DNA of 64,000 bases from an uncultured Paenibacillaceae bacterium (lineage in GTDB: Bacteria > Bacillota > Bacilli > Paenibacillales > K13), in contig CAJXLT010000002.1 in NCBI GenBank assembly GCA_913056365.1, positions 248,001-312,000 of the forward strand, given 5' to 3'. The notes beneath the pieces are model-generated. The model did not search any database and was not told the origin of the DNA. It worked only from the letters and a program-made list of their open reading frames with translations. Shown one piece after another: positions 17,917 to 33,561 of this stretch (its first letter is position 1; every line of letters starts with the position of its first letter). The position numbers and the translations under genes were made by a program.

Positions 17917-17942
17917 GGAATACTCCATCGTTATTGTAACGT

Positions 17943-18599: not shown

Positions 18600-18610
18600 T
18601 CTACCTGGTA

Positions 18611-18647
18611 AAAAATCGAAAGAGACCTGCCACATGACGGGTCTCTT
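18611..18647 (-). terminator. Terminator of the tail operon
   Basis: AAGAGACC (18620-18627) pairs with GGTCTCTT (18640-18647). On the minus strand the stem is followed by TCGATTTTTT, so it ends the tail operon transcript about 25 bases after its last gene. It may also work against the convergent GNAT gene. Confidence 0.8.
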
Positions 18648-18670
18648 CCGTACTGTCAAGTGTCAGAGAG

Positions 18671-18784
18671 CTATTCATTGAGGAACTGATTGACTTGCAA
18701 CCTAATAGTATCAGGTACTTGCTCGATGAATCGACGTCCTGCTCTCACTAGATCGACATAAATTTTCACAATAGGATCATTCAT
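18671..18784 (-). CDS. CD1375-like small phage protein
   Basis: This 37-residue product reads MNDPIVKIYVDLVRAGRRFI and continues EQVPDTIRLQVNQFLNE. The pattern (short acidic start, VKIYVDLV, basic turn, then VP..I...V..FL) is that of small CD1375-like proteins found at the 3' end of tail-fibre operons in Firmicute phages. Its ATG overlaps the stop of the preceding gene by eight bases, which shows translational coupling. Function is unknown. Confidence 0.7.
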   Translation of the reverse strand: MNDPIVKIYVDLVRAGRRFIEQVPDTIRLQVNQFLNE

Positions 18785-19103
18785 TAGTTTCGCCTCCAAC
18801 TAGCATTTCATATAGCACAGCTATGGCTTCTTTATTGTCGAGATCAGCAGCTTGCAATGCGATATTCTCCGCTTCAAGGCGTGCTATCTTCTGTTCTGAG
18901 GTTTCTGATTGTGGCTGGTTACGGATTTCTTCGATTTCTTCGGAGGACAGTACTTCGACTACCTCTCCTCTTAGGAGTTTCGGTACGTACAATCCCTCGA
19001 TTATCTCTCCCCGATACAACGTATGTTCCTCTGGTAGCTGCATCCCTTCCAAGAAGTCGCCTACAAAGTTCCCCTGTTCGTCAAACTGTACGCCTAGTTT
19101 CAA
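18777..19103 (-). CDS. Tail-fibre-linked protein with C-terminal coiled coil (XkdW-like position)
   Basis: This 108-residue acidic protein begins MKLGVQFDEQGNFVGDFLEG and ends in a coiled-coil-like stretch (EQKIARLEAENIALQAADL). It lies 13 bases after the fibre gene and overlaps the CD1375-like gene. In PBSX-like operons this place is held by small fibre accessory or assembly proteins such as XkdW. Assignment is by position and general look only. Confidence 0.6.
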   Translation of the reverse strand: MKLGVQFDEQGNFVGDFLEGMQLPEEHTLYRGEIIEGLYVPKLLRGEVVEVLSSEEIEEIRNQPQSETSEQKIARLEAENIALQAADLDNKEAIAVLYEMLVGGETNE

Positions 19104-19116
19104 TGTTCAACCCTCC

Positions 19117-21897
19117 TTATCGTTCCGCTCGGAACATAGCGAAAAACCTCACAACATGTCCTGCTGTTATAGGGCTTAGGACAGCAAAATCCACATACGC
19201 TCCGTTATCCCTGATTTGAAACACCTTTTCAGCTACTTCCGAAGCGTCAGCCCCTACACACGGCGTATATAGCAATGGTCTGTAACCCCTTGGCAGTCTA
19301 AAAATAGTTGCGTTAGTCGCGCCAACTCCGGATACCGTATCACCAACGATCATTACATTACCTAATTCGTCTTTGTAATACTTTACCGAGCCTGTCCAAC
19401 CATTTAACAATGTCGCTTTAATCCAATCTGGCTGCTGCTTCCGTGCATAATCCCGTTCGATCACAGTCACGTCACGCTTGATATCAGCAATGTCTCGAAC
19501 GTTTTTGCCGACTGCTGTCGCAAGGTTTGCTTGACCTTCCAGATCAGCTTCGGCTGCGTTGGTCGTGAGTAGGTACTTGTCCAAGATGATGTAATCGACG
19601 GAATAGGTAGCGGTTGGGTCATAGTCGGATGCAGATATATACGCACGTTGATTCCCATAAGATGTGCCTGCGCTTGTAATAATCCATTTACCGTCTGCTT
19701 CCCCGTTTCTATACACAACTAGGATTTTATCTGCCCTGTACGCTAAATGGGTGGTCTCATATCCTGATATACCACTATTGATATGATACGTAGTTCCATC
19801 GCCGCTAGATTGCGGTGTAACAGGCTCTCCCAATATAACCCCTTCTGAAAGTTCGACTTGGTTCAGTCCAGCGTATAACTCTAAACCTCCAACGTCCGAA
19901 ATTTCGACTTCGACTGGCTGTGCGAGTTGGTATTGGAGTTGGTATGGTATATATCCCTGATCGTTCATTTCCGTGGGTACCGTTGGTACAGAAGATCCAT
20001 CAACATATCCACCACCAACTTTTTTCTTTATCCAGCGTTTATCACCAGTACCATTGTAAGACTCATATGATGTACCGTATTCCCACATATACCAACCGTT
20101 AAAATAAGCCTTTACCTCATCCGCTGTTGGAGTATAAGACTCGCCCCAACCGCTGTCGGTGTTTGCAATGGATATAAGTATATTAGCCACACCAATAGAA
20201 ACCATATCAGCTTCCTGTACGCTGGACGTGCTGATTACTGATCTGATGATTAGCCCGTTATACTTGCTAACTACCAATTTGCCCGAGCTTGTAACTATTC
20301 CGTTTATATTTGAGATGGTGATAGTCTTAAAGCTAGGATCGAAATCATCAAAAAAATTTAAGTCAAGTGAACCGTCCAAAACCCTATACCCAAACTTCTG
20401 CAACCGAAAAAGCTTCCCATCCCTCTCATACACCTCATCGCAAATCGTTCCGTCAACGTTAGAGCGCCCGACTTCGAGGATGACTAGTCCGGACTGGTCT
20501 TGTGGTTCGAAAGGGATATCCTCTAAACTTAAAATATAATGTTTGAAGTTGTACGTACCTGCACCCACTGTGCCGCTAGTAAGCCCAACTTTCAAAGTTA
20601 CAGAGTTACTTGGGGTCACAACTGAATATTGTGTTGTAGCCGTGGTTGTTTGCAAAAACGTCTCTGTACCGTCACTGTCAATCGAAACTATATACGTTCG
20701 TGCACCGTGTTCAGCAATCCTAAAATAGTATTGCTGATCTGGTATAGCAGGGACTAAGAAAGACATACCCTGTCCAAGTGCGGTTGCAGTTAGAGTTATA
20801 TCGTAATTTCCGTTTTGAGTAACGCTTCCTGACAATTCGATATTATCAGGGTGTGGTTTAAGCAAATTCTTCCCCTTATTCTCAATCATCACCGTACCCA
20901 ACGGCTTCATGTTGGCGACAAATGGACGTGCTTTGGAACCTTCTGTAAGCATGATGGTTTCCCAATAGAAAGAGCCATTGTTTCCTTGACTGGATATAAA
21001 AACTCTTATATTAGAGTTGCTACCAGTGTTAAAGGTCAACACCTGATCTGTTCTATAGCTTACTATTACAGTCGGACTCGCATCGTTTGTATATATCGCA
21101 ACATACCCATTATGATTTAGTGACAAGGTGTAGGATTCATTTTCTTTTACGGCGACTACAATGTTTCTGACATTAGGCGAGCCATCTTGCACCTCAACTT
21201 CCGTCCGCACAGGAGATACATCGTTAAAAGTTCCCGTTGACGTTAGCCACAACCCCGAATCAAACAAAGGCACATGGTTAATATCCGTCCGCCCCTTCAT
21301 GCTTATCAGCCTCAAGCCCGACTCCTGTACGGCATCGACGATTTTCTGGCCGCGCTGTAGATTATACGGGATGGGGGCAGCATCGTTGGTCAGATCAGCT
21401 TCAACCTGAGATACTCTTGCATCCAGTTCTTGCACCTGCTGCACTGTGGCAGCTGATGCACTATCGATTGTGGCTGTCACGTTGGCTGCATTGCCAACTA
21501 TGGTGATCAGATTCAGAATTTCCTCAATGATTCCACCGCCCTCTTCAGGAATGTAATCCGCTCGTTCCCCTGCATTCGTGACAGCGTACAAAATCTCCCC
21601 CGCGTCCGGATCATTCGCAAATATGCCAATCTCTCGGATGTAAAACCCCTCAGTCACACCCTCATTCGTCACTCTCGCCTGCAGTCTGACCTTGCCATCC
21701 TCGATATTCACCAGTTCAACAATATTCAGAGCTTCGGTTTCATGTACCAGTTCAGTCAAGTCTTGCAAATCCGTTCCCTCCGGCACATAGCCGTCCCCAA
21801 TACCCACTCGGGTGAATGTCAGCGGCACACCCGCCAGTGCTTTAGCTTGTAAGGTTATGCCGGCATGAGTCATCTTCATTCCGTTAAATTCGGCCAT
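19117..21897 (-). CDS. Tail fibre / receptor-binding protein with tail-collar N-terminus
   Basis: This 926-residue protein would give the particle its target specificity. Residues ~1-165 are the conserved phage tail-collar fibre domain that attaches to the baseplate (MAEFNGMKMTHAGITLQAKA, then ADYIPEEGG), followed by a short coiled coil (VQQVQELDARVSQVEADL). The remaining ~730 residues look like beta-sandwich repeats, with two KPLGTVMIEN/ISDVGGLELY-type connecting segments and a C-terminal tip (WIKATLLNGWTGSVKYYKDE). The central part (about 20.1-21.2 kb) is visibly richer in A and T than the conserved ends, consistent with modular exchange. The ligand is unknown. Confidence 0.85.
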   Translation of the reverse strand: MAEFNGMKMTHAGITLQAKALAGVPLTFTRVGIGDGYVPEGTDLQDLTELVHETEALNIVELVNIEDGKVRLQARVTNEGVTEGFYIREIGIFANDPDAGEILYAVTNAGERADYIPEEGGGIIEEILNLITIVGNAANVTATIDSASAATVQQVQELDARVSQVEADLTNDAAPIPYNLQRGQKIVDAVQESGLRLISMKGRTDINHVPLFDSGLWLTSTGTFNDVSPVRTEVEVQDGSPNVRNIVVAVKENESYTLSLNHNGYVAIYTNDASPTVIVSYRTDQVLTFNTGSNSNIRVFISSQGNNGSFYWETIMLTEGSKARPFVANMKPLGTVMIENKGKNLLKPHPDNIELSGSVTQNGNYDITLTATALGQGMSFLVPAIPDQQYYFRIAEHGARTYIVSIDSDGTETFLQTTTATTQYSVVTPSNSVTLKVGLTSGTVGAGTYNFKHYILSLEDIPFEPQDQSGLVILEVGRSNVDGTICDEVYERDGKLFRLQKFGYRVLDGSLDLNFFDDFDPSFKTITISNINGIVTSSGKLVVSKYNGLIIRSVISTSSVQEADMVSIGVANILISIANTDSGWGESYTPTADEVKAYFNGWYMWEYGTSYESYNGTGDKRWIKKKVGGGYVDGSSVPTVPTEMNDQGYIPYQLQYQLAQPVEVEISDVGGLELYAGLNQVELSEGVILGEPVTPQSSGDGTTYHINSGISGYETTHLAYRADKILVVYRNGEADGKWIITSAGTSYGNQRAYISASDYDPTATYSVDYIILDKYLLTTNAAEADLEGQANLATAVGKNVRDIADIKRDVTVIERDYARKQQPDWIKATLLNGWTGSVKYYKDELGNVMIVGDTVSGVGATNATIFRLPRGYRPLLYTPCVGADASEVAEKVFQIRDNGAYVDFAVLSPITAGHVVRFFAMFRAER

Positions 21898-22467
21898 TTA
21901 TGCTCCTCCTTCCGGTAAAATAGTCCTTACTTTGACTTGCTGCACAACGCCTCCGATGCGCAAGGACAGCTCCTTGGTCCGTTCGATAATCATGCCGTCT
22001 AACCAGCTTCGGACATTCTTCACGCTGTGAATCGATCGGATCAGCTCGTTCAATGCATCGGCATCCGTTACTTCCGATTCAGTCGAGACCCGGAAGTAAC
22101 CCGGTGTTCCGCCGTACTCCCACCATTCGGTTACTTCAGCATCCGAGAAGGCTATGCTCACCACTTCTTCTACCGCCGATGGTGTTCCCTTCCGCTTGTG
22201 CCATGCGAGCGAATGGTGGACTAGCTCTCGCTTCCGTTCGACTGGAAGTGATGGGTCATAGAAGTCCACATGAAACTGATAAGCAAGCTGATCTACCCAA
22301 GTTTCCGGCAACGTATCGATATGATGCACAATTGCCAAGCGCGGGATCAGTGCGGTAGTAGCATGCAGCTGTTGGTCGATCGCTTCGGCTGCCGCTCGAA
22401 TGGTTGAATCGTTCTTCATCGGAGAAGGGACGAGATCGATCAGCTTGATTTCGGATACATCAATCAT
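21898..22467 (-). CDS. Baseplate/tail protein I (P2 gpI family)
   Basis: This 189-residue protein resembles P2 gpI: LIDLVPSPMKNDSTIRAAAEAIDQQL, LPETWVDQLAYQFHVDFYDP and GTPSAVEEVVSIAF. gpI sits at the wedge tips of the baseplate and contacts the fibre. It overlaps gene J by eight bases and directly abuts the fibre gene, the same J-I-H order as P2. Confidence 0.9.
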   Translation of the reverse strand: MIDVSEIKLIDLVPSPMKNDSTIRAAAEAIDQQLHATTALIPRLAIVHHIDTLPETWVDQLAYQFHVDFYDPSLPVERKRELVHHSLAWHKRKGTPSAVEEVVSIAFSDAEVTEWWEYGGTPGYFRVSTESEVTDADALNELIRSIHSVKNVRSWLDGMIIERTKELSLRIGGVVQQVKVRTILPEGGA

Positions 22468-23578
22468 CTTCCAACCCTCCGTAAGTCACATGGATGGCAT
22501 CCGCTACAGCAACATCCGTATTCGCAACTGTTATATGCGTAGGGCTAACCATATCAACCCGTCTCGCACCAGCGTTCATGACGCGACGTATTAACTCTGA
22601 TGGAAGTATGTCTCGCCCTATTCGGGATTTTTGCCATAATACATATTCCGTAACAGCCGCTTGTACCGCTTCTTGAATAGCTGTTGCAGACGTGACATCA
22701 TCGCTTGCGATACAATAAGTAAGGTCAATGTTATAGGAAACGACGTTCGGCGCTAGCACTGTTACTCTATCCGTGAGCGGTCTAATACTGCGATCATTGC
22801 ATGCTGCGTCAACCGTATTCAGCACTTCAACCCCTGGCAGCTCACCGCCTGTTAGAAGCACCCTGATCTCTACCTCCATCGGTGAGGGGGAATAGACGAG
22901 TACGTCCAAGATATCCTTGGATGCGGATCGCGCCCAATATTCATAGGCTTCACGAGGACCCGCCGAGCTGAAAGACTCAGGAGCAATGTGAATACGTTCC
23001 CGGTAAGCCTCATCACTCTCCACATCGGTTCCACCTGCACTCACAGACACATTCGCAACTTGAGAGACGAACGGAATCGGATCAACCAATATATTGATCT
23101 GCCCCGGCGCATACCCGTTTCCGACAACACCCGCCTCCATACATTCACATAGAAACTCACCTTCGATTTCTCCTGCTGGGATGTCACCGCCTTCAACCAC
23201 TGCGAAGTACAGTTCATTCCCAGGTGTCACTCTCGTACCAGGCGGAATCAATAGTGCCCCAGGCTGAGGAGCAGACAGTGTATAACGAACGGTCACAGTC
23301 GCTGGCTCCGCTTGCAGGCGCGGTGTTTCTGTTAAAGCTCCGATCTGATCCAGATAATCCCCTGTGGCATAGCGCAGCAAATTCATCTTAGCAGTTTCGT
23401 TGATCAGCACTCGCTGCTGAATAATCAGGTCCGCAATGGTCATCAAAAAAAGCCGTACCGGATCGCCCGGATACAGCTTCTTGTCTGCGACTGCCTCATA
23501 GACTGCAATAATACTATTCTTAATCTCTTCGGTATCCGTATCGACAAACTGAATGTCTGACAAATCGTATACACTCAT
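22460..23578 (-). CDS. Baseplate protein J (P2 gpJ / XkdT family)
   Basis: This 372-residue wedge protein has the hallmark LLRYATGDYLDQIGALTETPRLQAEPA region near residue 85 and AGGTDVESDEAYRERI near 187, followed by a C-terminal domain with SELIRRVMNAGARRVDMVSP. It forms the conserved baseplate wedge arm of contractile tails. Its start overlaps the stop of the gp25-like gene by four bases. Confidence 0.93.
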   Translation of the reverse strand: MSVYDLSDIQFVDTDTEEIKNSIIAVYEAVADKKLYPGDPVRLFLMTIADLIIQQRVLINETAKMNLLRYATGDYLDQIGALTETPRLQAEPATVTVRYTLSAPQPGALLIPPGTRVTPGNELYFAVVEGGDIPAGEIEGEFLCECMEAGVVGNGYAPGQINILVDPIPFVSQVANVSVSAGGTDVESDEAYRERIHIAPESFSSAGPREAYEYWARSASKDILDVLVYSPSPMEVEIRVLLTGGELPGVEVLNTVDAACNDRSIRPLTDRVTVLAPNVVSYNIDLTYCIASDDVTSATAIQEAVQAAVTEYVLWQKSRIGRDILPSELIRRVMNAGARRVDMVSPTHITVANTDVAVADAIHVTYGGLEDD

Positions 23579-23907
23579 TCCAACCTCACCCCTTGCTTCA
23601 GACGAAATGTGATACCAGGCAACATCCGCCCTGACTGTCCATCCTCCTCATAATCTACTCGCACTACTTCCACACGGGGTTCATATTGCTGAACCGCTGT
23701 CACGATCTGTTCAGTCAGGCGAGCTTGTTGGACGGTATTCATAGGACCATCCAGCAGCGAGGTATTCATGCCCAAGCCGCGGTTGAGCACTGCACTGCCT
23801 TGTGCCGTCGATACGATTGTCCGGATGTTCTGAGCCAGCTCTTGTATGCCTGTTGCTCCGAAATCAATCGACTTGCCAGCAGCTGTCGTTGTATAGTTCA
23901 TATTCAT
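23575..23907 (-). CDS. Baseplate wedge protein, GPW/gp25 family
   Basis: This ~110-residue protein has ELAQNIRTIVSTAQGSAVLN and the contractile-tail signature RGLGMNTSLLDGPMN. gp25/gpW-family proteins seed sheath assembly on the baseplate. AAGGA precedes the ATG at 23907; a GTG one codon upstream is possible. It is tightly packed between U and J. Confidence 0.88.
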   Translation of the reverse strand: MNMNYTTTAAGKSIDFGATGIQELAQNIRTIVSTAQGSAVLNRGLGMNTSLLDGPMNTVQQARLTEQIVTAVQQYEPRVEVVRVDYEEDGQSGRMLPGITFRLKQGVRLE

Positions 23908-23915
23908 CACCTTCC

Positions 23916-24305
23916 TTATACGTACTCTTTCAGCGAAAGGTTAGCGATGCCGACTAGCAGCCGCCCCGCACCGTCAAAATACGTCCAATCCTGCGTAATC
24001 GATTCGATATACCATTTGTGCACCCCCATTGGGATGCCGCCGACTATGAGCGTCTCCGCTCGTCCTTCGCGACACATGACAAGCAGCTTGGTCATTTCGG
24101 ACCGTGGCTTCATGCCATATCGGACGTCGAAACGCATGGTGAACGATATCGAATCCTGTCCAGGTCCAATATACTCCGGTTTGGGATGCCGCTGATGGAT
24201 ATCATGCACCGACCACCGCGGTGAAGTAGAACGAGAGAAATTCTCGAACGTGCGGATCTGATTAGCTGAAGCTATAAAAACCACATCCCCGAACGAACCG
24301 ATCAT
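23916..24305 (-). CDS. Tail protein U (P2 gpU family)
   Basis: This 129-residue protein starts MIGSFGDVVFIASANQIRTF and contains HPKPEYIGPGQDSISFTMRF, a clear P2 gpU pattern. In P2 the product is needed for tail completion. GGGGGTG lies five bases before the ATG at 24305, so this start is preferred over an in-frame TTG 18 bases earlier. Its place between V and W differs from P2, where U follows the tape measure. Confidence 0.87.
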   Translation of the reverse strand: MIGSFGDVVFIASANQIRTFENFSRSTSPRWSVHDIHQRHPKPEYIGPGQDSISFTMRFDVRYGMKPRSEMTKLLVMCREGRAETLIVGGIPMGVHKWYIESITQDWTYFDGAGRLLVGIANLSLKEYV

Positions 24306-24547
24306 CCTATCACCCCCAACCAATAACCGGTTTCCAACCCATTACCGAGAAATACACAAAGCACCGTCTGACCGACTTGCGGCATGCGAAGCTCCGTATA
24401 TTCATCTAGCAATATAGGCGGTGCTGCCAGCTGCAGCCAGCCACTTACCAGATGATCCCGATCTGGGAACGTTGCCCGAATGCGGCGGCGAGCCGCATCA
24501 ATCGCGGATACACGGCCTACCTTCACTATGTTCATCCCATCGCTCAT
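24302..24547 (-). CDS. Short gpV-like baseplate OB-fold protein, no spike region
   Basis: This 81-residue protein matches the OB-fold part of baseplate assembly protein V: VGRVSAIDAARRRIRATFPD, SGWLQLAAPP and GQTVLCVFLGNGLETGYWLG. P2 gpV continues into a beta-helical spike that pierces the target; here the gene stops after the OB fold. The reading frame is intact at both ends (ATGA overlap with D, tight junction with U), so it looks like a naturally short form and not a frameshift. No PAAR-type tip was found in the cluster. Confidence 0.75.
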   Translation of the reverse strand: MSDGMNIVKVGRVSAIDAARRRIRATFPDRDHLVSGWLQLAAPPILLDEYTELRMPQVGQTVLCVFLGNGLETGYWLGVIG

Positions 24548-25557
24548 CCGTTTGCCAACACCCTTCTTAATTCCAGTGATGTTCTATAACCGGAGCTGCC
24601 TACCTCGTGCCTTGCGGAGTCGATCATATACTTCTCATCGAACTTGCCGAACCCGACAAGTGAGACTGTCAGCCCCTGTACTAGCGCATAATCGCCGAGA
24701 ACGGTAACGCTCGCGCGTTGTGCTTTCTTGTTCTTCTGGTACAGTGCTTTTCTTGCTTTGCGGATTGCCTCGGCCTCAGAGGATACCCGCTCGTTCAGCT
24801 TTAAGGTAGGACCCGTTGCTTCCGGCAGTCGGAATGCACCCTGAATGGTTCTATTCGCGGAACTATCGAAATAGCTGATTTCACATGCCGCATAGGCCGC
24901 ATCAACCACCGAGCGATTGAAGGAGTAAGAGAGAATGTCGCTCTCCCCACGCGTCAACGTACGCACCGGAGGCTGTGCTTCATAGGTACGATCGTCCAGC
25001 AGCACGAGCGTGTTATTCGTGATTTTCAAGGATACAGCTTCCTTCTCACAGATAGATGTCAGGAAGGACAGATCGCTCTCATTGCTCTGCTCCAGCCGAT
25101 CATAGCGGACATCCTCGGTCTCGAACATGAATGCCATCCCTGCTGAATCGGCAATGCTTGAGGCGATTTGCTGCAAGGTCACCTCTTCCCACGAACGGGT
25201 ACGCAACTCATTCTTGATGACATCATTGCCGGGATAAGACAAGGCCTGAATGACTACTTTATCTGGCGGACCATCCAAACTAAGGCTATCTATGGTGAAT
25301 GTACCGCATGACAAGGAACGACTGATGCCCGGACCGTACCAGTTCTCTAGCCTGATCTCTGCTTCCACCTCATCCCCACTGTTCGGCATCCATGCATCGT
25401 GCCAGCGTCCTTCCCGATCGGCTAAAGTCACGCTCAGATCATCTGCCCGATTGGTGCCATTGTCGGTGTAGGACATAGACATAAGAAAAGGCGCAATATC
25501 CTCTGAGATATCCACGCCTTCATAAGTAAGATGTGCTATTGCTTTTCGTGTGCTCAT
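24544..25557 (-). CDS. Tail hub protein D (late control D family)
   Basis: This 337-residue hub protein belongs to the P2 gpD / gp27 type. Visible family features are the N-terminal VDISEDIAPFLMSMSYTDN, SYPGNDVIKNELRTRSWEEV in the middle and SDLSFLTSICEKEAVSLKI. It forms the centre of the baseplate under the tube. It follows the LysM protein by three bases and overlaps gene V by four. Confidence 0.9.
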   Translation of the reverse strand: MSTRKAIAHLTYEGVDISEDIAPFLMSMSYTDNGTNRADDLSVTLADREGRWHDAWMPNSGDEVEAEIRLENWYGPGISRSLSCGTFTIDSLSLDGPPDKVVIQALSYPGNDVIKNELRTRSWEEVTLQQIASSIADSAGMAFMFETEDVRYDRLEQSNESDLSFLTSICEKEAVSLKITNNTLVLLDDRTYEAQPPVRTLTRGESDILSYSFNRSVVDAAYAACEISYFDSSANRTIQGAFRLPEATGPTLKLNERVSSEAEAIRKARKALYQKNKKAQRASVTVLGDYALVQGLTVSLVGFGKFDEKYMIDSARHEVGSSGYRTSLELRRVLANG

Positions 25558-25560
25558 CTC

Positions 25561-25767
25561 TCAACGCCTCCGCTTCCACGGCGGTAACTGCACAGCTTCT
25601 CGGGAAGCAATCTCCGGAGCTCGCAGGACAACACCTGCAGCGAACACAACCGTGCGCATATGTGCCGGGTTAGCCGCCATCAGCTCCGACATATAAGCCT
25701 CAGTCTGGTAGAGCTTATAGGAAATACCGTCCCATGTGTCCCCTTGGATCGTCGTATACTTAAGCAT
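25561..25767 (-). CDS. Tail protein X, LysM-like (P2 gpX family)
   Basis: This 68-residue protein starts MLKYTTIQGDTWDGISYKLY, a LysM-like fold as in P2 gpX, which bridges tube and hub. The start overlaps the tape-measure stop by eight bases. Confidence 0.88.
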   Translation of the reverse strand: MLKYTTIQGDTWDGISYKLYQTEAYMSELMAANPAHMRTVVFAAGVVLRAPEIASREAVQLPPWKRRR

Positions 25768-28387
25768 GGAAACTCAACCGCCTTTCCTGCTGAACCATCT
25801 CGCGGAAGCGGCGTTCGAACTCCACCTGCGACTCGCGGATGGCAGACTGTACCTGACTACGGACATCATGTGTGCTCCCTCCCACCGCCAACCGAATGTT
25901 CGGTGCGAAGGTCACTTGCATGCTACCGCTCGTATCATGCCCCATCAGATGATTGACCCGATCCAGAATCGCGTGCGAGCGCGGCTTGTTGTTGATTGGA
26001 ATAGCCGCCTCTAGCCCCGCCTCGCCGAAGATTGCCGGGCGGTCGGAGAAGCCTCCATCGGCATATCCTTCCGGAATAGGAATGCTTGGGTAGTATTGTT
26101 GAGCTAGTCTAAGATCAGATACTAGACCTGCTTGCTTAAATAATACATTGACATCAATCTGGTATTCCTTTTGCATGAGACCCATGTTTTCGTTTAGTTT
26201 CTCAATGTTGGCAAGCGCTAAATCAACTGCTACTTTTTGCTCGTCAGTGAGACTACTATAATTGGCCATCATACTTTCGATTGTGCCACCAAGATCAAGC
26301 TCAAGTAACGATAACTGTTGGTCGTATAGTTCTTTGTAACTTGCAGTCGCCGATTTGAGTTCTTCATACTTCTTGATGTATTCATCGAGATTGTCAATTT
26401 CTTCATCGGATAATTCATCTATTTTCTTATCAAGTTGTTCTAAGTGGTTATATCCAATAAAGCTATAACCGACTGTTTGTCCAACCTCATTAGCCCGCTG
26501 CTGCAAATCATCCAGTAGTTCTGTCCTCTCATCAGACGGTTGCATGTCCATGATTTCCTCAAATTCCACCTGGAACTCCTTGAATGCAGGTATTGCATTC
26601 TCTATGGCAGTTCTTTGATCCCAAAGTTCCTCTGTCTGAAGCTCTAATGATGCTATTTCCTCTTCAAGCTTTGGAAGATCCCTTCGCTTTTCTGCTACTT
26701 CCTTTTCCAGCTTTAACTTGGACAAATCCCGTTCGGCATCTTTTTCTCGCTTCAGCAGTTCCAGTTTTTCATTAATTTTTCCATTCTCAATATCATATTG
26801 ACTAATCCTGTCCGGGTACATATCCTGTAAGATTTGTTCTATTTCAGCAAGCCGCTCTTTTTGCGTTGACAGGTCGCGAGTAGCATCTGTGTTGTTATTA
26901 ACGATTTCATGTAAGTGTTCATATTCCCACACAAGATCATTCGTCTTTGTCGCTTTCTCCGCAGCTATATCATAATGAGAGGACACCTCCTCCAGATCGT
27001 CCCCCATATGAATTAGCTCTTGCCGCGCATCCTCTTGGTGCTTCTTATACGTAGTCCATCCTGCCGATAGAAGGCCTACACCGGCGATTGCCCAACCTAC
27101 AGGTCCAGTAAGCCCCCTGAGTACTGTACCCAGAATACGCACAGAGGCAGAGACACCTCCCACACCTGCTCCTGTCTTCGCTGTCTCTTTGCCCACTTTC
27201 GCGAGATTGCCGATGAATGTACTCACGTCAGCAATACCCTTGCCCATCTTAATCGTGCCTGCGGCGATCCCGATGCCCGCTATGGCCTTCGCTACATCTT
27301 CTGCAATAGCGATCATTTCCGGTCCATTCTGCTCGAAGTAATCCACCGCTTTCTCCGCCTGCTCAATCATCTTCTCCCCATAAGGCTCCAGCACCTGAAA
27401 AAGCTGATTCTTCAGCCGTTGCATCTTGTCATCCAGCGTCATGGTTTCATCAGCATAGCGGGCTATGCTTCCACCCACTCCTTCGAAGCTGCTGCCGAGA
27501 TCCGCCAGTGCGAAGGCACCGCTGCGCGCTACTGTCACCATCTGTTGGGCGCTGTCTTGGCCGAAGGCGTCTGTAGCGATGGCGAGAGCATCCGCAGATG
27601 ATTCCGCTCCCTGCATGGCCTGCATTGTCTTCGCCAGCTCCTGCCGTGAATTCTTCTGCTCGCCTGCCCATTGCTGGAACGTCTTGTTCAGCCCGGGCAT
27701 CACCTTAGATGTGGCAATTCCTTGTGCATTCAAATGTCCGAAGAAGTCTGCCGTCTCTTCCATACTGAAACCTGCATGTTGCATGGCTCCCCCGTAGCTG
27801 TTCAGGTCGGTTGCGAGCTGGCCGAAGCCGATGCCAGTATGCTGCGAAATCTTGAACATGCCATCCAATAACGTACTTGCATCCTCTGCCGGGCGCTGCC
27901 ATTGCGACAGAGCTTGTCCGAATGCCTTCGCGTTGCCCGCACCGTTCTCCTTCAGCATGCGAGACAGGTCCAGTATCTGCCGAGCAAGCGAATCCATCGT
28001 TCCGCCTGACGCCTCTGTGTACGAATCGAGATTGGCGATCGTTCCGGCAACTTCCGCAGCCGCATTGGGCACTTCCTGCATGATCGAGCGGAAGCTTCCC
28101 TCCATCGCTTGCAATTCCCGTCCGCTGGATCCTGTGCTTAGCTGGATAGATTTCAGCGCTTTGTCATACTCGTTCGCGGTATTCCAGGCTACGACTCCTA
28201 GCTGCGCAATGGCAGCCGTCATGCCAACGCCTATATTCTTCGCGTACTCATTCGCGCTTTTGGCTGCCCGGTCAAATTCGGAATCACTTTGATTCATGTT
28301 TTTTTGCAGCGTCTGCAGCTCTTCGGAAAATGTACCGACCGCATCTTGCAGCTTGTTCATAAGCGCTATCTCTGAATTGTTAGCCAT
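25760..28387 (-). CDS. Tail tape measure protein
   Basis: This 875-residue protein sets tail length. The N-terminal 350 residues are a TP901-type tape-measure core (helical, Gly/Ala/Met-rich, DAFGQDSAQQMVTVARSG). Hydrophobic segments lie around residues 365-455 (AIAGIGIAAGTIKMG, GPVGWAIAGVGLLSAGW), and a long charged coiled coil spans ~460-760. The last ~90 residues (GYADGGFSDRPAIFGEAGLE) are the usual C-terminal tail cleaved or packed near the hub. It comes after the chaperone gene and its -1 frame extension, the standard order. Confidence 0.92.
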   Translation of the reverse strand: MANNSEIALMNKLQDAVGTFSEELQTLQKNMNQSDSEFDRAAKSANEYAKNIGVGMTAAIAQLGVVAWNTANEYDKALKSIQLSTGSSGRELQAMEGSFRSIMQEVPNAAAEVAGTIANLDSYTEASGGTMDSLARQILDLSRMLKENGAGNAKAFGQALSQWQRPAEDASTLLDGMFKISQHTGIGFGQLATDLNSYGGAMQHAGFSMEETADFFGHLNAQGIATSKVMPGLNKTFQQWAGEQKNSRQELAKTMQAMQGAESSADALAIATDAFGQDSAQQMVTVARSGAFALADLGSSFEGVGGSIARYADETMTLDDKMQRLKNQLFQVLEPYGEKMIEQAEKAVDYFEQNGPEMIAIAEDVAKAIAGIGIAAGTIKMGKGIADVSTFIGNLAKVGKETAKTGAGVGGVSASVRILGTVLRGLTGPVGWAIAGVGLLSAGWTTYKKHQEDARQELIHMGDDLEEVSSHYDIAAEKATKTNDLVWEYEHLHEIVNNNTDATRDLSTQKERLAEIEQILQDMYPDRISQYDIENGKINEKLELLKREKDAERDLSKLKLEKEVAEKRRDLPKLEEEIASLELQTEELWDQRTAIENAIPAFKEFQVEFEEIMDMQPSDERTELLDDLQQRANEVGQTVGYSFIGYNHLEQLDKKIDELSDEEIDNLDEYIKKYEELKSATASYKELYDQQLSLLELDLGGTIESMMANYSSLTDEQKVAVDLALANIEKLNENMGLMQKEYQIDVNVLFKQAGLVSDLRLAQQYYPSIPIPEGYADGGFSDRPAIFGEAGLEAAIPINNKPRSHAILDRVNHLMGHDTSGSMQVTFAPNIRLAVGGSTHDVRSQVQSAIRESQVEFERRFREMVQQERRLSFHA

Positions 28388-28840
28388 GGTCCTCCCCTCC
28401 CTTCCCGCGGATGCGCATTATGCTGCTTACATACTCGTTCAACTCGCTTAATGACTGTGTCACGAAGTATGAAATCGGGGTGTGCGTGTGCAAGGACAAA
28501 AAAACCAATACGTCCCGAATCGGCGTCCGGCCTAGTCCACACCGAGCAAAAAATTTTGCACCCGCAGCGTAAGACGAGAGAAGTCCGAAGCGTTGATCTT
28601 CTTCACCAGCTCAATGGGCACGCCCGCAGCGCGTGCGGCAATATAAGCTTGAAACAGCTTACTTGTCTCCTTGACGAATGGATTCTCCCCCGTCTCTGCT
28701 ACGAATTGCCGTTCTGCTGCGATAATATCGTCTGCGGTTAGACCGGAGAAGTTGACTTGCAGCGAGTCAACTGTATTCCCTTCGAATTCAACAGGGTAGC
28801 GAAGCGAAAACTCGCTACCCTGAACCTTATGCTCAGCCAT
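28380..28840 (-). CDS. Tail chaperone long form by -1 ribosomal frameshift (E+E' / G-GT type)
   Basis: At 28547-28556 the chaperone frame reads CAA-AAT-TTT-TTG, which contains the slippery heptamers A-AAT-TTT and T-TTT-TTG. Slipping back one base opens a frame that runs without a stop from there to 28380, adding about 55 residues (beginning ARCGLGRTPIRDVLV, ending RGKGGEDHG) and overlapping the tape-measure start. Long chaperone forms made this way are conserved in P2, lambda and many contractile-tail operons. Use of the site is inferred from sequence and position. Confidence 0.7.
28532..28840 (-). CDS. Tail assembly chaperone, short form (P2 gpE-like)
   Basis: This 102-residue protein begins MAEHKVQGSEFSLRYPVEFE and ends VQNFLLGVD. 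It sits between tube and tape-measure genes, where a tape-measure chaperone is always found. The family is recognised by place, size and the frameshift site at its end rather than by strong motifs. GGAGGTAG precedes the ATG. Confidence 0.85.
   Translation of the reverse strand: MAEHKVQGSEFSLRYPVEFEGNTVDSLQVNFSGLTADDIIAAERQFVAETGENPFVKETSKLFQAYIAARAAGVPIELVKKINASDFSRLTLRVQNFLLGVD
28547..28556 (-). other. Programmed -1 frameshift slippery site
   Basis: The minus strand reads AAATTTTTTG in the frame A-AAT-TTT-TTG, giving two overlapping X-XXY-YYZ heptamers five codons before the chaperone stop. Confidence 0.7.
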
Positions 28841-28853
28841 ATGGTTCTACCTC

Positions 28854-29375
28854 CTACATTCCGAGTTGTTGGCGAACGTCAGCAAGCTGATCCTCACCGT
28901 CGATCACACATTTGAAATTAAACTTGTCGATCTCCAACACATTACGGCCGTCGATATCGATCTTCAGATAGGTCAGTTCGAATTCGTTGGTGGAATTGGT
29001 CGCCGTTCCTGGCGTAAGACTGCCGAGTGCGCCCGTCTTCGGAATGGCCTTGACCGCCACTGTGAATCCTGCTGAACGATATTCGCCTGAGGAAGTATCG
29101 TACATCTGCTGCGCTCCTCTGAAGGTGAGCGCATGTGATTTCGTCTGGAACAGATTGACACCTGGCCGAGCCAGTGTCCGCCAATTCAGCGTACAGGTCA
29201 TGCTGCCATAGTGGCCCAGCGTAGGGCTGTCTACCTCACCGGCAATGCCTGCACCGCTGATCGTTTCTGTCATAGCTGCGATGGAGGGCAAATCCACGCT
29301 TGCTGTACCGAGCCATTCCTTGCCATCACGATAGACGGAGAAGTTAATTAATTTTTCAGGTATTTGTCTACTCAT
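28854..29375 (-). CDS. Major tail tube protein
   Basis: This 173-residue protein starts MSRQIPEKLINFSVYRDGKE and contains GAGIAGEVDSPTLGHYGSMT, a clear match to P2-type (FII) tail tube proteins, which polymerise into the inner tube. It directly follows the sheath gene. Confidence 0.93.
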   Translation of the reverse strand: MSRQIPEKLINFSVYRDGKEWLGTASVDLPSIAAMTETISGAGIAGEVDSPTLGHYGSMTCTLNWRTLARPGVNLFQTKSHALTFRGAQQMYDTSSGEYRSAGFTVAVKAIPKTGALGSLTPGTATNSTNEFELTYLKIDIDGRNVLEIDKFNFKCVIDGEDQLADVRQQLGM

Positions 29376-29396
29376 CGTTTTATTCGTCTCCTTCCT

Positions 29397-30839
29397 TTAT
29401 GCGAACAGTCCGCTCAAATATTGGGGATCATACTCGACAACAAAGTCAATTTCCTTGGCTGGAGAAGGCGGCGTCACGTACACATGGAACTTGACGATGC
29501 CATCGGCCAGTGCGATGTCCGGATTTTCCGACGCTTGGAATTCTACGCGGCCGCCGACAATATTGCCTGCTGCAGCCAATCCGTTCAACCAGAGATTCAG
29601 GCTGTCGGTTACGGCTGCGATCAGGCGGCGGGTAATCGGTGCGTCTACTTGCTGCCAGAAGGTCAGTACTATCGTGTTCTGAATCCAATCCATCATGCGG
29701 CGCACCGGAATGAACGCATCCTTCGGATCAGTAACAGTCGGGTACACGCCAGTCCGGTTGCCCCATGCCCGCCAGCCGCCAATCCAGTTCAGCGCGGTGA
29801 CGACGCCTTCACCGTTCAAGTAGTTGGCTTGATCTTGACCTAGCAGCACTTCACTGCCGTCAGCAAGCTTCGCCCCGTCTGCCTGGAAGGCTTGGTTCGA
29901 TGGTGACACATACGGAACGTTGTCATTGTTGGCATCTGTGACCGCCATGACGCCAGCTAGCTGTGTGGACATATGGAACGTACGACCTCCCAAGCTCAGC
30001 TTCGGCCAGCTGTTGATCTGGCGTTCTGAGGTGTAGCTGTTGTCGTTCTTCCACGCAGGTACGTCGCTGTACGATGTAACGCTATCCGCAGGAATATCCG
30101 TTAGTGCGACACAGCGGAAGCTGCCGTTAATGTTCCCGGCCTTCGCCGTCATCACCGTGGCTACAGCGGGATTGTGCGAATATCCCGGCGCTAGCACTAT
30201 GCCGGGCACGATCCGGTATTTCGGGAATACTTGGTTAAGCAGCTCCAATCCAGTCAGATTGCCGCTACCGTCAACGCCGCCGATAATATCTTCGGCCGTC
30301 ACTGCTGTAGGATCGAGCTTGTCAAAATCAAGGGTGAGTGACTCACTAGCAATCATGGAACCGTCCGTCAATCGCTGGATCATCAGATAACCGTCTGCAT
30401 CATAGCCAATGGCATAATCCACACCTTCCACATACGTCGTACTGCCATCATCAGATTTCACAATAACCGACGCCAGCACAATACCGGATTGCTCTACTAC
30501 GACAAGATCATGTTCCAATACAGCCGATACATTCGTTTCGCTTATCTTCATCGTAGTCGGTTCCAATACGTTAATCAGAATGGCCGGGGAAGCTTGGAAC
30601 GTACCGAAATACGAATACATAAATTCGCACAAAGTAAAGCTCCAGTCATCCGAATACCCGAAAGCCTCAACAGCTTCCTGATACGAATGGCATAGTATGG
30701 GCTCATTCACAGGAGCCGATTCCCGTTGTGACAGATGCACCGGGGCACTGCCGAATACAACTGGCACCGTACCGGATTGTACAGCAGGGAGTATAGATGT
30801 TGGAATTTCAGAAGTATACACACCATGTTGGTAGCTCAT
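29397..30839 (-). CDS. Contractile tail sheath protein
   Basis: This 480-residue protein begins MSYQHGVYTSEIPTSILPAV, the typical sheath N-terminus, and includes FGYSDDWSFTLCEFMYSYFG, the conserved core GGWRAWGNRTGVYP and the C-terminal WLNGLAAAGNIVGGRVEFQ with the closing strand FVVEYDPQYL. Sheath proteins mark a contractile (myo-type) tail as opposed to a flexible one. Its ATG is one base after the stop of the preceding small gene. Confidence 0.95.
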   Translation of the reverse strand: MSYQHGVYTSEIPTSILPAVQSGTVPVVFGSAPVHLSQRESAPVNEPILCHSYQEAVEAFGYSDDWSFTLCEFMYSYFGTFQASPAILINVLEPTTMKISETNVSAVLEHDLVVVEQSGIVLASVIVKSDDGSTTYVEGVDYAIGYDADGYLMIQRLTDGSMIASESLTLDFDKLDPTAVTAEDIIGGVDGSGNLTGLELLNQVFPKYRIVPGIVLAPGYSHNPAVATVMTAKAGNINGSFRCVALTDIPADSVTSYSDVPAWKNDNSYTSERQINSWPKLSLGGRTFHMSTQLAGVMAVTDANNDNVPYVSPSNQAFQADGAKLADGSEVLLGQDQANYLNGEGVVTALNWIGGWRAWGNRTGVYPTVTDPKDAFIPVRRMMDWIQNTIVLTFWQQVDAPITRRLIAAVTDSLNLWLNGLAAAGNIVGGRVEFQASENPDIALADGIVKFHVYVTPPSPAKEIDFVVEYDPQYLSGLFA

Positions 30840-30840
30840 G

Positions 30841-31155
30841 CTACTTCACGTCCTTTCGAAGTTGGTTATACGCTTTATGTTCGATTGTGCCAGTTCGATT
30901 CATACGCTTCGTTCCTGCACCAATCTGTCCGATCGGCACAACAAGCTGTTGGATCGCTGGCTGATTCTCCATCATTCGTGCAACAGACACCGGCATCGCA
31001 TCGCGAAACACCGTGTATTGGGCAAGCCCGCGTAAATTCGGTCCAATATAAATAGTCTGTTCGCTTGCGCTGTGCTGTCGTGCCCGATTTTTCTGCTTCC
31101 GTCTCTTCGGCTTTTGTTGGACTTCGTCTATCATTGCTCCTTGCTCTTCAATCAT
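30841..31155 (-). CDS. Small basic protein upstream of the sheath, unknown
   Basis: This 104-residue protein has a Lys/Arg-rich N-terminal half (QKPKRRKQKNRARQHS) and a second half with YIGPNLRGLAQYTVFRDAMP. I do not recognise the family. It is embedded in the tail operon with GGAGGAGGTG before its ATG and near-zero spacing to both neighbours, so it is part of the module. The basic tail might bind a neighbour or nucleic acid; this is speculation. Confidence 0.65.
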   Translation of the reverse strand: MIEEQGAMIDEVQQKPKRRKQKNRARQHSASEQTIYIGPNLRGLAQYTVFRDAMPVSVARMMENQPAIQQLVVPIGQIGAGTKRMNRTGTIEHKAYNQLRKDVK

Positions 31156-31159
31156 AGAA

Positions 31160-31669
31160 CTACACCTCCTCCCATACCGGAATTACGCTTTGCACGGTCC
31201 AGATAGATTTCGCGCGGCCTATCCAGTATTCGGATGGCTGCTCCTGAGATATTTCCCATTGGTAAGGCTTTTCGATTGCGAACTTCCCTTCTACAATCCG
31301 CTGCTGAAGAAGCGACGCTCGTACTTGCTCCATCAGGTTCAGCAAATCGTATCCGTACGCAGATACAGGCTCGCTGGCAGCTGTCCCCCCACGATACATA
31401 CCGAATATCATCTCCATCTCGACTGTAGACGAGAGCGCATCCGGCACGTCCGGCGGAACGGCGTCTTCTCGATCAAGTCCCTTCACAGGTCGCACACAGA
31501 TGTATGGATTCGTGAAGTTCTCCGGCTGGAGAGGATCGGGAAAGGGAAGATCCCAGTCGAATACGCTCGGTGTCAGCAGTTCACCAGCTGTCCCCGATGC
31601 AGCCGCGTAGCCTGCAACCTGCTGCTCCAGAAATCTGCGAATCGCTCTCAACAGGAGATATGCCGTCAT
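31160..31669 (-). CDS. Probable tail terminator / completion protein
   Basis: This 169-residue protein (MTAYLLLRAIRRFLEQQVAG, NPYICVRPVKGLDREDAV, EKPYQWEISQEQP, IWTVQSVIPVWEEV) has the size, alternating pattern and position of tail terminator proteins that cap the tube at the end away from the baseplate. No exact family is recognised. In a headless particle it would be the top cap. CAGGAGGTG precedes the ATG. The 226 bases upstream (31670-31894) hold a 17-codon frame but no convincing gene. Confidence 0.55.
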   Translation of the reverse strand: MTAYLLLRAIRRFLEQQVAGYAAASGTAGELLTPSVFDWDLPFPDPLQPENFTNPYICVRPVKGLDREDAVPPDVPDALSSTVEMEMIFGMYRGGTAASEPVSAYGYDLLNLMEQVRASLLQQRIVEGKFAIEKPYQWEISQEQPSEYWIGRAKSIWTVQSVIPVWEEV

Positions 31670-31894
31670 CCACTCTTCACCTCCTGTCTGCTAGTGCTTG
31701 CTGGAATAGGATGGAACTGCATGTTTCCCATCACTCCTCACCTCCTTCATAGCGGCCAGCCAACGATTGTCAGATTGGCGAACGAGAAAGGCCACTCCGT
31801 ATCGAGTGACTGAGCACTGCCGTTTTATTTCCTATTTGGTACATTACCATCTTATAACGGAATTACTGTATAAATCCGCCACCTACCCGCCATG

Positions 31895-32332
31895 TTAATT
31901 CCATCCGAGCATTACGGCTACCTCTTGAACGAATTGTTTGCGCCATCTGCTGTACGTACGATCACTAATATGCAGCTTCTGGCAAATGCCGATGGCGGTT
32001 AGATGTTGAGAGGTGGTCCAGTATTTGACCCGAACAAACTCTTGCTTCACCTCTGGCAATTGTGCATAGACTTGCTCGATAGCCACAGATACGCGCTCCA
32101 TATGCATCAGCTTCGCATGTCCGGCTAGCTTGACCGCCATCTGTCCAGTAGGATCACTCGCTAACCTCGCAGAGCTCGCTCCCTTCACAATGGTCTTGTC
32201 AACCGGATCTTCGTCGAATGGCGTCATGATTTCCTCGCGCAGTCGAGACAATTCCTGATCACGGAATGGATGTGCGTACAGCTCTGCCTCAACATGTCGG
32301 AATACGTCCTTGTGCAGCTTTGTGTCATTCAT
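31895..32332 (-). CDS. ArpU/RinA-like late transcription regulator
   Basis: This 145-residue helical protein has a C-terminal helix-turn-helix (TAIGICQKLHISDRTYSRWRKQF) resembling sigma region 4, as in ArpU/RinA-type phage late activators. It is the first gene of the minus-strand module and probably switches on the tail genes once de-repressed. GGAAGGTGGAAGGGG lies upstream of the ATG. The intergenic region above it carries the Xre and LexA-type sites. Confidence 0.8.
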   Translation of the reverse strand: MNDTKLHKDVFRHVEAELYAHPFRDQELSRLREEIMTPFDEDPVDKTIVKGASSARLASDPTGQMAVKLAGHAKLMHMERVSVAIEQVYAQLPEVKQEFVRVKYWTTSQHLTAIGICQKLHISDRTYSRWRKQFVQEVAVMLGWN

Positions 32333-32370
32333 GTTCCCCTTCCACCTTCCCTAGTTCATAGTTCTTTACA

Positions 32371-32397
32371 GATAAATAAATTATCCATTTTGGATAA
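32371..32397. promoter_or_regulatory. Operator-like palindromes O1 and O1'
   Basis: GATAAATAAATTATC (32371-32385) is a GATAA-N5-TTATC palindrome. It overlaps a second one of opposite polarity, TTATCC-N5-GGATAA (32381-32397). They lie 39-65 bases upstream of the ArpU-like start. Confidence 0.65.
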
Positions 32398-32452
32398 GGG
32401 AAGATAGAAAGTCTCTTGACTCCGTCAGCTTCCCCATTTATACTATCCGCAA

Positions 32453-32467
32453 GATAAATCATTTATC
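32453..32467. promoter_or_regulatory. Operator-like palindrome O2
   Basis: GATAAATCATTTATC, same GATAA-N5-TTATC form. The flanking bases extend the perfect arms to AGATAAAT/ATTTATCT (32452-32468). Confidence 0.7.
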
Positions 32468-32519
32468 TGAGAGTTCATCCTACCTTTACAGCTTTCTATG
32501 AAGTTGCCGCATTAAACCT

Positions 32520-32533
32520 AGAACATTTGTTCG
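32520..32533. promoter_or_regulatory. LexA box upstream of the tail-operon repressor
   Basis: The minus strand reads CGAACAAATGTTCT, matching CGAACRNRYGTTYG except the last base and containing a perfect GAAC-N4-GTTC. It lies about 78 bases before the Xre start and 188 bases before the ArpU-like start. It would link the module to SOS. Confidence 0.75.
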
Positions 32534-32549
32534 TATTTGAATTATAGTA

Positions 32550-32564
32550 GATAACTATATTATC
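32550..32564. promoter_or_regulatory. Operator-like palindrome O3
   Basis: GATAACTATATTATC, the third GATAA-N5-TTATC site, next to the LexA box and close to the xre promoter region. Confidence 0.65.
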
Positions 32565-32610
32565 CGTCAAGGTAGTTTGTCACATTTTTCATAGAAGGGA
32601 GGAGAGACGC

Positions 32611-33108
32611 TTGGATTTGGCTGCGAAATTAACGATGCTTCGGAAGCAATCTGGTATGTCTCAATACGAAGTTGCTCAACGACTCGGTATCAAGCGACCG
32701 CGCTACAATGCTTGGGAACAGGGCATTGCCAAGCCTAGAGCAGATATGATTCATCTAGTGGCATCACTGTTCGATGTCTCCATCGATGAATTGCTGGGGC
32801 AACCGGAAGATGCAGGTGAAATATATGAGAAGCTTACGTCCGTTGTCGAGCTGTTTCAGTCTCACGGATTTACCGTTAAGCTCGATTTGTCATCGGGGAT
32901 CATACCGGAAGAAACGGTCATTCTGGGGACAGCGGGGAACACCTTGATGCGCGTTCATGTGAACAAGCTGTTGATTCATGCTGACGCAGTATTGACGCAA
33001 GTGCAGAATAAAGCAGCGGAAGTGGAAGAGGATTGGACAGCAGAAGAGTTGAACATGATCGAAGCGTACAAGAAGTTTTTGCGTTCGCAACGTTCGCAGA
33101 ATGGATAA
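32611..33108 (+). CDS. Xre-family repressor divergent from the tail operon
   Basis: This 165-residue protein has an N-terminal helix-turn-helix (LTMLRKQSGMSQYEVAQRLG, then YNAWEQGIAKPRADMIHLVA) and an unrelated C-terminal half (FTVKLDLSSGIIPEETVILG). The start is TTG with GGGAGGAG six bases before it. It is divergent from the ArpU-like gene, as phage repressors are from early genes. It most likely binds the GATAA-N5-TTATC palindromes between them. There is no peptidase Ser/Lys pair to suggest self-cleavage, so SOS control probably comes through the LexA box. Confidence 0.88.
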   Translation: MDLAAKLTMLRKQSGMSQYEVAQRLGIKRPRYNAWEQGIAKPRADMIHLVASLFDVSIDELLGQPEDAGEIYEKLTSVVELFQSHGFTVKLDLSSGIIPEETVILGTAGNTLMRVHVNKLLIHADAVLTQVQNKAAEVEEDWTAEELNMIEAYKKFLRSQRSQNG

Positions 33109-33151
33109 GTCTGAGCGAGTTTAGGAATAGACATCATCCTCAAGCGTGAAG

Positions 33152-33184
33152 AAGTCCCATCAGCAGCATACCGGCGGGACTTTT
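33152..33184 (+). terminator. Terminator of the xre gene
   Basis: AAGTCCC (33152-33158) pairs with GGGACTT (33176-33182), followed by TT, about 45 bases past the stop. Confidence 0.7.
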
Positions 33185-33235
33185 CACACTTGCTTCCACT
33201 CAATTCCGCCGAGTTTGTATTTAGCGGGAAATAAG

Positions 33236-33434
33236 GGTCTTATCTACTACAGAACGGTGAAATGTAGAACGCAAACGGGATTTATTGGTCTTATTCCTAG
33301 CATACGTTGCTTTCTCAGCTTACATACACCGTAATACGTCCATAATTTTCCGCAATTTTCTTAATTTGGGGGATGTCCCCTGTTATAAGACCAATTAGTT
33401 CTCCTAAGAGCCAGCAGAAGTGCGCAGCAATAAG
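33236..33434 (+). repeat. Dispersed repeat element, copy B (undescribed)
   Basis: Same ordered blocks as copy A (16303-16456): GGTCTTAT (33236), TGGTCTTAT (33286), TTACAT (33320), AAGACCAAT followed by TAGTTC (33387), CAGCA (33412), AATAAG (33429). ATTGGTCTTAT (33284-33294) and ATAAGACCAAT (33385-33395) are perfect inverted repeats, so this copy could fold into a long hairpin. It fills most of the gene-free stretch 33185-33561, where no credible gene is seen. Confidence 0.6.
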
Positions 33435-33459
33435 GTTAGTGCCGATGATGCAAGCAGAA

Positions 33460-33513: not shown

Positions 33514-33561
33514 CGAACTACAATTCTTCGAGTATCCGCTATGCGTCAGGCCTTCAAGCTA

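Follow-up and report, generated by a model that had tools for sequence, protein, structure and literature searches.

A predicted SOS-controlled R-type tailocin, probably released in trans, between lexA and glnA of an uncultured Paenibacillaceae bacterium

The R-type pyocins of Pseudomonas aeruginosa are P2-like contractile tails without a head, and R- and F-pyocins share one lysis cassette; the diffocins of Clostridioides difficile have a tail of the PBSX-like type. To our knowledge, few contractile tailocins of Gram-positive bacteria have been characterised. Here, a cluster of contractile tail genes is described that fills 14.4 kb (positions 18671-33108) of a 64,000-nucleotide stretch of DNA, hereafter the window, from an uncultured Paenibacillaceae bacterium (G000:C2:248001-312000, in a host genome of 4.65 Mb and 34 contigs that is estimated to be 99.3% complete). 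The cluster is predicted, with good confidence, to encode a vertically kept, SOS-controlled R-type tailocin, most likely aimed at competing bacteria, that is released by lysis genes acting in trans.

According to a review (PMC10598620), pyocins are SOS-linked, and their clusters are under the control of a repressor, PrtR, that is cleaved through RecA, and an activator, PrtN, and contain lysis genes of their own. The present locus is like the R-type pyocins in that the only solved sequence matched by its sheath is that of pyocin R2 (PA0622, E 3.2e-23), and in a predicted link to the SOS response. It is unlike them in having the LexA-like box at the promoter, an Xre-family regulator with no detected peptidase domain, and no recognised lysis gene. 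The diffocins are headless, SOS-linked contractile tails from a Gram-positive bacterium (PMC6088184), with a spike that lacks a C-terminal beta-helix and a hub that carries lytic transglycosylase and endopeptidase (PMC11329794). The spike here is similarly bare, consisting of an 81-residue oligonucleotide/oligosaccharide-binding (OB) domain, whereas the hub, of 337 residues, has no such enzyme domain found by profile search, and the tail is P2/Mu-like.

A second tail cluster in the same genome, on contig C10, has a gene set similar to those of PBSX of Bacillus subtilis and the tail bacteriocins of Brevibacillus laterosporus (PMC9406221); the main cluster differs from these in tail type and in having no lysis gene. 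The sheath of the main cluster is, over the full length, 53% identical to that of Vibrio phage X29 and 52% identical to those of Paenibacillus phages phiERICV and Lily, whose records span 42-46 kb in contrast to the 14.4 kb of the tail cluster. The open-licence literature, judged mostly by title and the start of the abstract, yielded no Paenibacillus-group tailocin of this type. What sets the locus apart is a LexA-like operator at the promoter, the lack of lysis genes of its own, and a probable dependence on a second tailocin.

An intact tail behind a LexA-like operator

The original prediction had read this cluster as a probable SOS-inducible tailocin, with a complete headless contractile tail, an ArpU-like activator and an Xre regulator. 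Searches with Pfam and PHROG profiles recover each named tail function (sheath, tube, assembly chaperone, tape measure, X, D, V, U, gp25, J, I and fibre) at the place assigned to it, all on the minus strand, and likewise identify the activator (phrog_36, E 5.8e-21) and the regulator (PF01381, E 1.6e-14). Terminase, portal, capsid, integrase, holin and endolysin genes had been described as missing from the lexA-glnA interval, and these profiles indeed recognise no head, packaging, integration or lysis gene in it, one gene of 108 residues being without a family match. No tail gene has a broken frame. The complete intact tail, the lack of recognised head genes and the conserved LexA-like operator together support the tailocin reading.

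The operator AGAACATTTGTTCG (32520..32533), which is LexA-box-like with one mismatch to the consensus, lies in the gap between the ArpU-like and Xre genes, seven bases downstream of the -10 element of a sigma-A-type promoter (TTGACG-18-TATAAT, 32541..32570, minus strand, 11 of 12 matches) that faces the tail operon. In the sister genome (G001, the only other genome of the genus compared), a perfect palindrome, CGAACAATTGTTCG, occupies the aligned place within a gap that has otherwise diverged but still has the promoter elements. The 64-kb window as a whole contains just two more sites with no more than one mismatch (17174 and 17234), both lying between lexA and the gene of a LysM protein that we take to be YneA. 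The background in 1.86 Mb is 111 sites (108 with one mismatch and three perfect, including that of the sister), or 0.017 expected per 278-bp gap. Because a promoter scan overall does no better than chance (19 sites versus 21.8 in shuffles, no excess), the promoter call rests on position and conservation. GATAA/TTATC inverted repeats in the same gap, one of them inside the promoter spacer, are candidate Xre operators. With a LexA-like box at the likely promoter of the tail operon, SOS-linked control is likely at the operator level, which is the level at which the earlier guess of SOS control gains support, and the locus would be a case of direct LexA control.

Another conserved signal of the tail operon concerns its assembly chaperone. 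At the end of the chaperone gene stands the slippery heptamer T TTT TTG, whose first T closes a codon; reading on from it in the -1 frame gives 57 codons without a stop, as far as position 28380, just within the tape measure gene, an organisation that we take to be the E/E' arrangement of phage P2. A T6N heptamer in the same phase, followed by an open -1 frame, is present in all 37 loci with related sheaths that are compared below, as TTTTTTG in 30, TTTTTTC in five and TTTTTTA in two.

The gene at 31160..31669 (minus strand; phrog_2581, E 3e-30) belongs to the PHROGs category "head and packaging". An AlphaFold model of its product (mean pLDDT, the predicted local distance difference test score, of 69, built from six sequences), compared also with Foldseek, has fold matches to tail terminators, namely those of phage Mu (Z 11.8), the diffocin collar (Z 10.6) and the pyocin R2 collar (Z 10.3), these being matches of fold only, at 6-10% identity. 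From the modelled fold we infer a tail terminator, despite the PHROGs head label, and because of that fold no head gene is counted in the cluster. The PHROGs label of this family is one that can mislead. The C-terminal tail of the terminator, considered as a marker of the headed or headless state, was rejected, being present in near relatives only.

A sequence of events can be proposed from these features. The cluster would derive from a P2/Mu-like myovirus, of which it retains the tail module; Paenibacillus phages Lily and phiERICV have tails of this type. In an undamaged cell, LexA bound to the box at the start of the promoter would silence the ArpU-like activator and the tail genes, with Xre, bound to the GATAA/TTATC inverted repeats, probably adding to the repression; upon DNA damage, LexA would be cleaved, the activator made and the operon transcribed. 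The frameshifted chaperone would aid assembly of the tail around the tape measure, and the terminator would cap the tube where a head would otherwise join, leading to a build-up of headless contractile particles. The fibre would select the target, killing would follow from puncture of the membrane, and release would depend on a holin and an amidase supplied in trans, most likely by the LexA-boxed, PBSX-like cluster on contig C10. Induction, the particle itself, killing and shared lysis are steps that we infer.

Headed and headless relatives and the place of the locus

A head and packaging module elsewhere in the genome, using these tail genes, had been named as what would overturn the tailocin reading. 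The terminase and portal families of the nearest prophages, phrog_15 (E 1.5e-249 on a near prophage) and phrog_21, have no match anywhere in the host genome, capsid and integrase families and other terminase and portal families not having been searched genome-wide, and none in the sister, G168 and G085 genomes. A single weak host match to a broader terminase family, phrog_2 (22.6 bits), lies within an open reading frame (ORF) read as HsdR/helicase-like. Matches to phrog_2 are stronger in the sister, G168 and G085 (E 1e-18 to 1e-47), so that these three genomes may hold other prophages; the terminase-like match of the sister (E 2.5e-46) has one internal TGA.

At E 1e-20 or better, the window sheath has matches in 35 of the 296 genomes searched in the order, which includes Paenibacillus; host and sister are among the 35. 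All 37 loci in these genomes were inspected, with genes labelled by profiles from the window and a few relatives, for seven head and neck families: phrog_27 (tail completion/Neck1), phrog_2551 (minor tail), capsid, protease, portal, and large and small terminase. Fourteen loci have none of the seven and the remaining 23 have at least five, 21 of these having all seven. The phrog_27 and phrog_2551 genes, which lie between terminator and capsid, are missing from all 14 headless loci and present in all 23 prophage loci, and the terminator is retained in every headless locus. Headless and headed relatives in this way mark the boundary between tail and head genes, with the terminator kept and the tail-completion/Neck1 gene lost.

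A tree of the 37 loci, built from sheath, tube, J and D by a quick method with support only from the Shimodaira-Hasegawa-like approximate likelihood ratio test (SH-aLRT), requires four changes between the headed and headless states, all forced by starred branches. The headless sets are the host and its sister, G085, G274, and a ten-member clade of which eight lie directly beside rpsI. As the closest relative of the host and sister cluster in this tree is a prophage (G215), the host cluster has most simply lost its head genes independently of the rpsI-linked clusters. Headless tail clusters on the rpsI side occur in eight genomes of one family (code f10), together with sigma-like, Xre and IrrE-like genes.

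Comparison of host and sister gives a synonymous rate (dS) above 1 for every tail gene with a value (Nei-Gojobori method, NG86), so that, dS being saturated, the ratios of nonsynonymous to synonymous rates (dN/dS) are rough: 0.012 for the tube, 0.085 for the sheath, 0.231 for the tape measure, 0.256 for the terminator and 0.04 for both regulators. Protein identity is 56-97% for the core and falls to 47% for I and 32% for the fibre, for which dS is not computable. The tail proteins look to be under purifying selection and the fibre to have been replaced; such a combination of conserved core and exchanged fibre is typical of both tailocins and phages. The sister fibre (L037:2029-3747) bears a polysaccharide deacetylase domain (PF01522, E 2.3e-18), which suggests a wall or capsule polysaccharide as its target. 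In four pairs of rpsI-type headless clusters, dN/dS is 0.00-0.31 for the tail genes minus fibre and terminator, the terminator reaching 0.71 in the closest of the four pairs. Neither broken frames nor relaxed selection, the marks of a decayed prophage, are seen in the tail genes of the window.

The cluster occupies the whole interval between lexA and glnA in the host genome, with a GNAT gene, lexA and the LysM protein gene on one side and, past the divergent Xre gene, glnA on the other. Fifteen relatives were hand-picked among the 36 other genomes in which lexA was matched. In 14 of them glnA lies no more than about 8 kb past lexA and the interval has no match to any window tail protein; in the remaining one, G024, glnA lies outside the stretch. 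The glnA-side position is the same in the sister genome, where the far side of the cluster is a contig end and lexA was not found in the assembly, the neighbouring contig starting just short of that gene. As to attachment sites, comparison of 17901-18900 with 33001-33700 by script gave no common word of at least 10 bases that might serve as a flanking direct repeat.

Release of the particle and competing explanations

That the cluster itself has no lysis gene, seen as a puzzle from the outset, holds under profile search, and a plausible source lies elsewhere in the genome. The sheath profile PF04984 missed the window sheath yet matched two other sheaths in the host genome, and these matches led to a PBSX-like cluster on contig C10 and to a cluster on contig C3 that resembles an extracellular contractile injection system (eCIS). 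The PBSX-like cluster (G000:C10:98357-111481), the second headless tail cluster of the genome, has a PBSX-type tube (DUF2001), sheath, tape measure, baseplate, fibre, holin (phrog_1299) and amidase (PF01520). It is preceded by a sigma-factor-like gene (phrog_3512), with one LexA-like box, CGAACTAGTGTTCC, upstream and a second, CGAATATATGTTCG, further into the cluster; the sister has a counterpart of this cluster, in which holin and amidase are present and both boxes lie at the equivalent positions. The cluster on C3 (G000:C3:154424-175790) is a third contractile system, with an AAA ATPase bearing a winged-helix domain, a 562-residue sheath (PF04984/PF17482) and, by reading, tube- and baseplate-like ORFs.

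Headless clusters do not in general lack lysis genes, since G049, G085 and G108 carry them beside the fibre: a holin (phrog_1299) and a glycoside hydrolase (PF08924) in G049, an amidase (PF01520) in G085, and in G108 an amidase called only by a profile made for this analysis. In G279, a peptidase-like ORF (by reading) adjoins the fibre. The rpsI-linked clade is divided in this respect, with lysis genes next to the fibre in some clusters and none recognised there in others. The six rpsI-type genomes in which no lysis gene was counted (G168, G104, G122, G232, G074 and G258) have, a few kb beyond the fibre and past genes read as sulphate-assimilation genes, an Amidase_3-like gene of 256-260 residues, presumably the host CwlD. 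G168 and G104 also have a 132-residue ORF by the fibre; the one in G168 has no PHROG match and resembles a membrane ORF that neighbours the amidase of G108. In G203, extra fibre-like ORFs and an amidase-like ORF (by reading) lie upstream of the regulators of the headless cluster (22355-30029, L071 and L072 joined); they are perhaps a fibre store or part of a second tail cluster.

A search at E 1e-20 did not find the C10-type sheath in any of those six genomes, so that a C10-type cluster is not what supplies lysis there. The four genomes examined further (G258, G168, G074 and G122) each have, at a distance of 44-48 kb from the sheath, a PBSX-type cluster of another kind that includes an endolysin gene and a phrog_1299 match. 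Upstream of it in G258, G168 and G074 are Xre- and IrrE-type genes and, by reading (with Pfam and PHROG matches for G074 only), no head gene. Lysis-less and lysis-bearing tail clusters co-occur in the host and in four f10 genomes, and perhaps in the sister. These pairs raise the question whether two tailocins share one lysis cassette, for which the R- and F-pyocins offer a precedent. A wider reading, offered tentatively, is that two unlinked headless tails form one weapon system, in which the P2/Mu-type tail gave up its lysis genes and the PBSX-type cluster provides holin and endolysin for both upon co-induction by DNA damage. The pairing would then have at least two origins, one in this genus and one in the rpsI-linked lineage of another family, and repeated head loss from one tail family would have produced the first partner. 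The CwlD-like gene of the six rpsI-type genomes and the open flank of the sister cluster weaken this wider reading.

Several points weigh against an SOS-controlled tailocin released in trans. No lysis gene is recognised in the cluster, unlike the R-tailocin clusters covered in PMC10598620, which also mentions some eCIS loci without a lysis cassette, so that such genes are usual rather than universal. Profile searches see no peptidoglycan-digesting domain in hub, tape measure or fibre, and the argument for lysis in trans is confined to the co-occurrence of clusters and the similarity of their operators. The LexA-like box is recognised from its match to a consensus. Moreover, in the rpsI-type headless clusters the stretch that separates the regulators contains no LexA-like box within one mismatch of that consensus, from which it follows that such control is not general; headless locus G085 has one, between a 172-residue ORF and its Xre gene.

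The explanation that comes closest to the preferred one accepts the tailocin and changes the route of release, to an orphan holin-amidase pair on contig C4, to host autolysins or to the death of damaged cells. The pair, in which a holin-like match adjoins an amidase gene among host genes (C4:197621-198725), in a neighbourhood that is the same in the sister, speaks for such a route. In the roughly 1.1 kb scanned there, however, the sole site with up to three mismatches is a one-mismatch LexA-like site within the upstream ORF, so that no good box lies near the pair, whereas the C10 cluster has both boxes and lysis genes; we consider another release route rather unlikely. A decaying prophage remnant, that is, a myovirus stripped of its head, integration and lysis genes, is improbable. 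Missing lysis genes and nearest relatives that are prophages with the same tail order would fit a remnant, and against it stand the intact frames of all tail genes, their dN/dS of 0.01-0.26 where dS is computable, and the retention of both regulators, promoter, LexA-like box and frameshift signal; profiles found no remains of head genes, and the glnA-side position is common to both genomes of the genus examined.

Two further explanations are very improbable. The tails could be donated to a helper phage, with a head module elsewhere in the genome or a visiting phage using them; true phages do have tails of this type, and the phrog_2 match suggests that the sister may hold another prophage. Such use is hard to reconcile with the lack of phrog_15 and phrog_21 matches in all four genomes searched and with the loss, in every headless locus, of the phrog_27 and phrog_2551 genes that every prophage locus keeps; a visiting phage may nonetheless use the tails. 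The cluster could instead be an eCIS-type contractile injection system that delivers a cargo effector, since it is a headless contractile tail and the same genome has a separate eCIS-like cluster on C3. An AAA+ ATPase is a hallmark of eCIS clusters, however, and neither this nor a recognisable cargo gene is found among the genes from 18671 to 33108, whose set and order are those of a P2/Mu-like phage.

Genes of the cluster

At the lexA end, the cluster begins with a small gene for a product of 37 residues (18671..18784, minus strand, as are all genes that follow up to the divergent regulator), presumably XkdX-like, that matches phrog_1382 (E 4.7e-07, function unknown) and no Pfam family. The 108-residue protein 3' of the fibre (18777..19103) has no Pfam or PHROG match; small proteins resembling it are found by profile 3' of the fibre in some relatives. 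The tail fibre, a receptor-binding candidate (19117..21897), matches PF12571 (E 3.1e-08) and, at its N terminus, phrog_7037 (E 7e-54), with residues 325-878 matching phrog_13022 (E 4.3e-111). The baseplate genes comprise I (21898..22467; PF09684, E 1.2e-27), J (22460..23578; PF04865, E 3.5e-60) and the gp25/W-like wedge (23575..23910; PF04965, E 2.7e-10), and are followed by tail protein U (23916..24323; PF06995, E 9.8e-23). The short, V-like central spike (24302..24547; PF04717, E 9.7e-06) has 81 residues in host and sister alike and 64-184 across the other loci. Next are the baseplate hub D (24544..25557; PF05954, E 1.2e-09; phrog_52, E 4.6e-94) and tail protein X (25561..25767; PF05489, E 2.3e-07).

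The tape measure protein (25760..28387, 875 residues) matches PF10145 (E 1.8e-11) and phrog_28 (E 6e-35), and it adjoins the -1 frame extension (28380..28553) of the E-like tail assembly chaperone (28532..28840; PF10109, E 4.6e-07; phrog_3140, E 2.2e-25), entered at the heptamer. Beyond the sheath gene (29397..30839, 480 residues; phrog_23, E 4.4e-91; PF17482, E 2.6e-06) lie a small tail-operon protein of unknown function (30841..31155; phrog_4089, E 9.4e-17), the terminator and the late activator (31895..32332), whose family, phrog_36, we take to be ArpU. The divergent Xre-family regulator (32611..33108) is encoded on the plus strand. The FII tube (28854..29375, 173 residues), between chaperone and sheath, carries the phrog_55 label "head closure", yet is a tail tube by Pfam (PF04985, E 9.3e-45).

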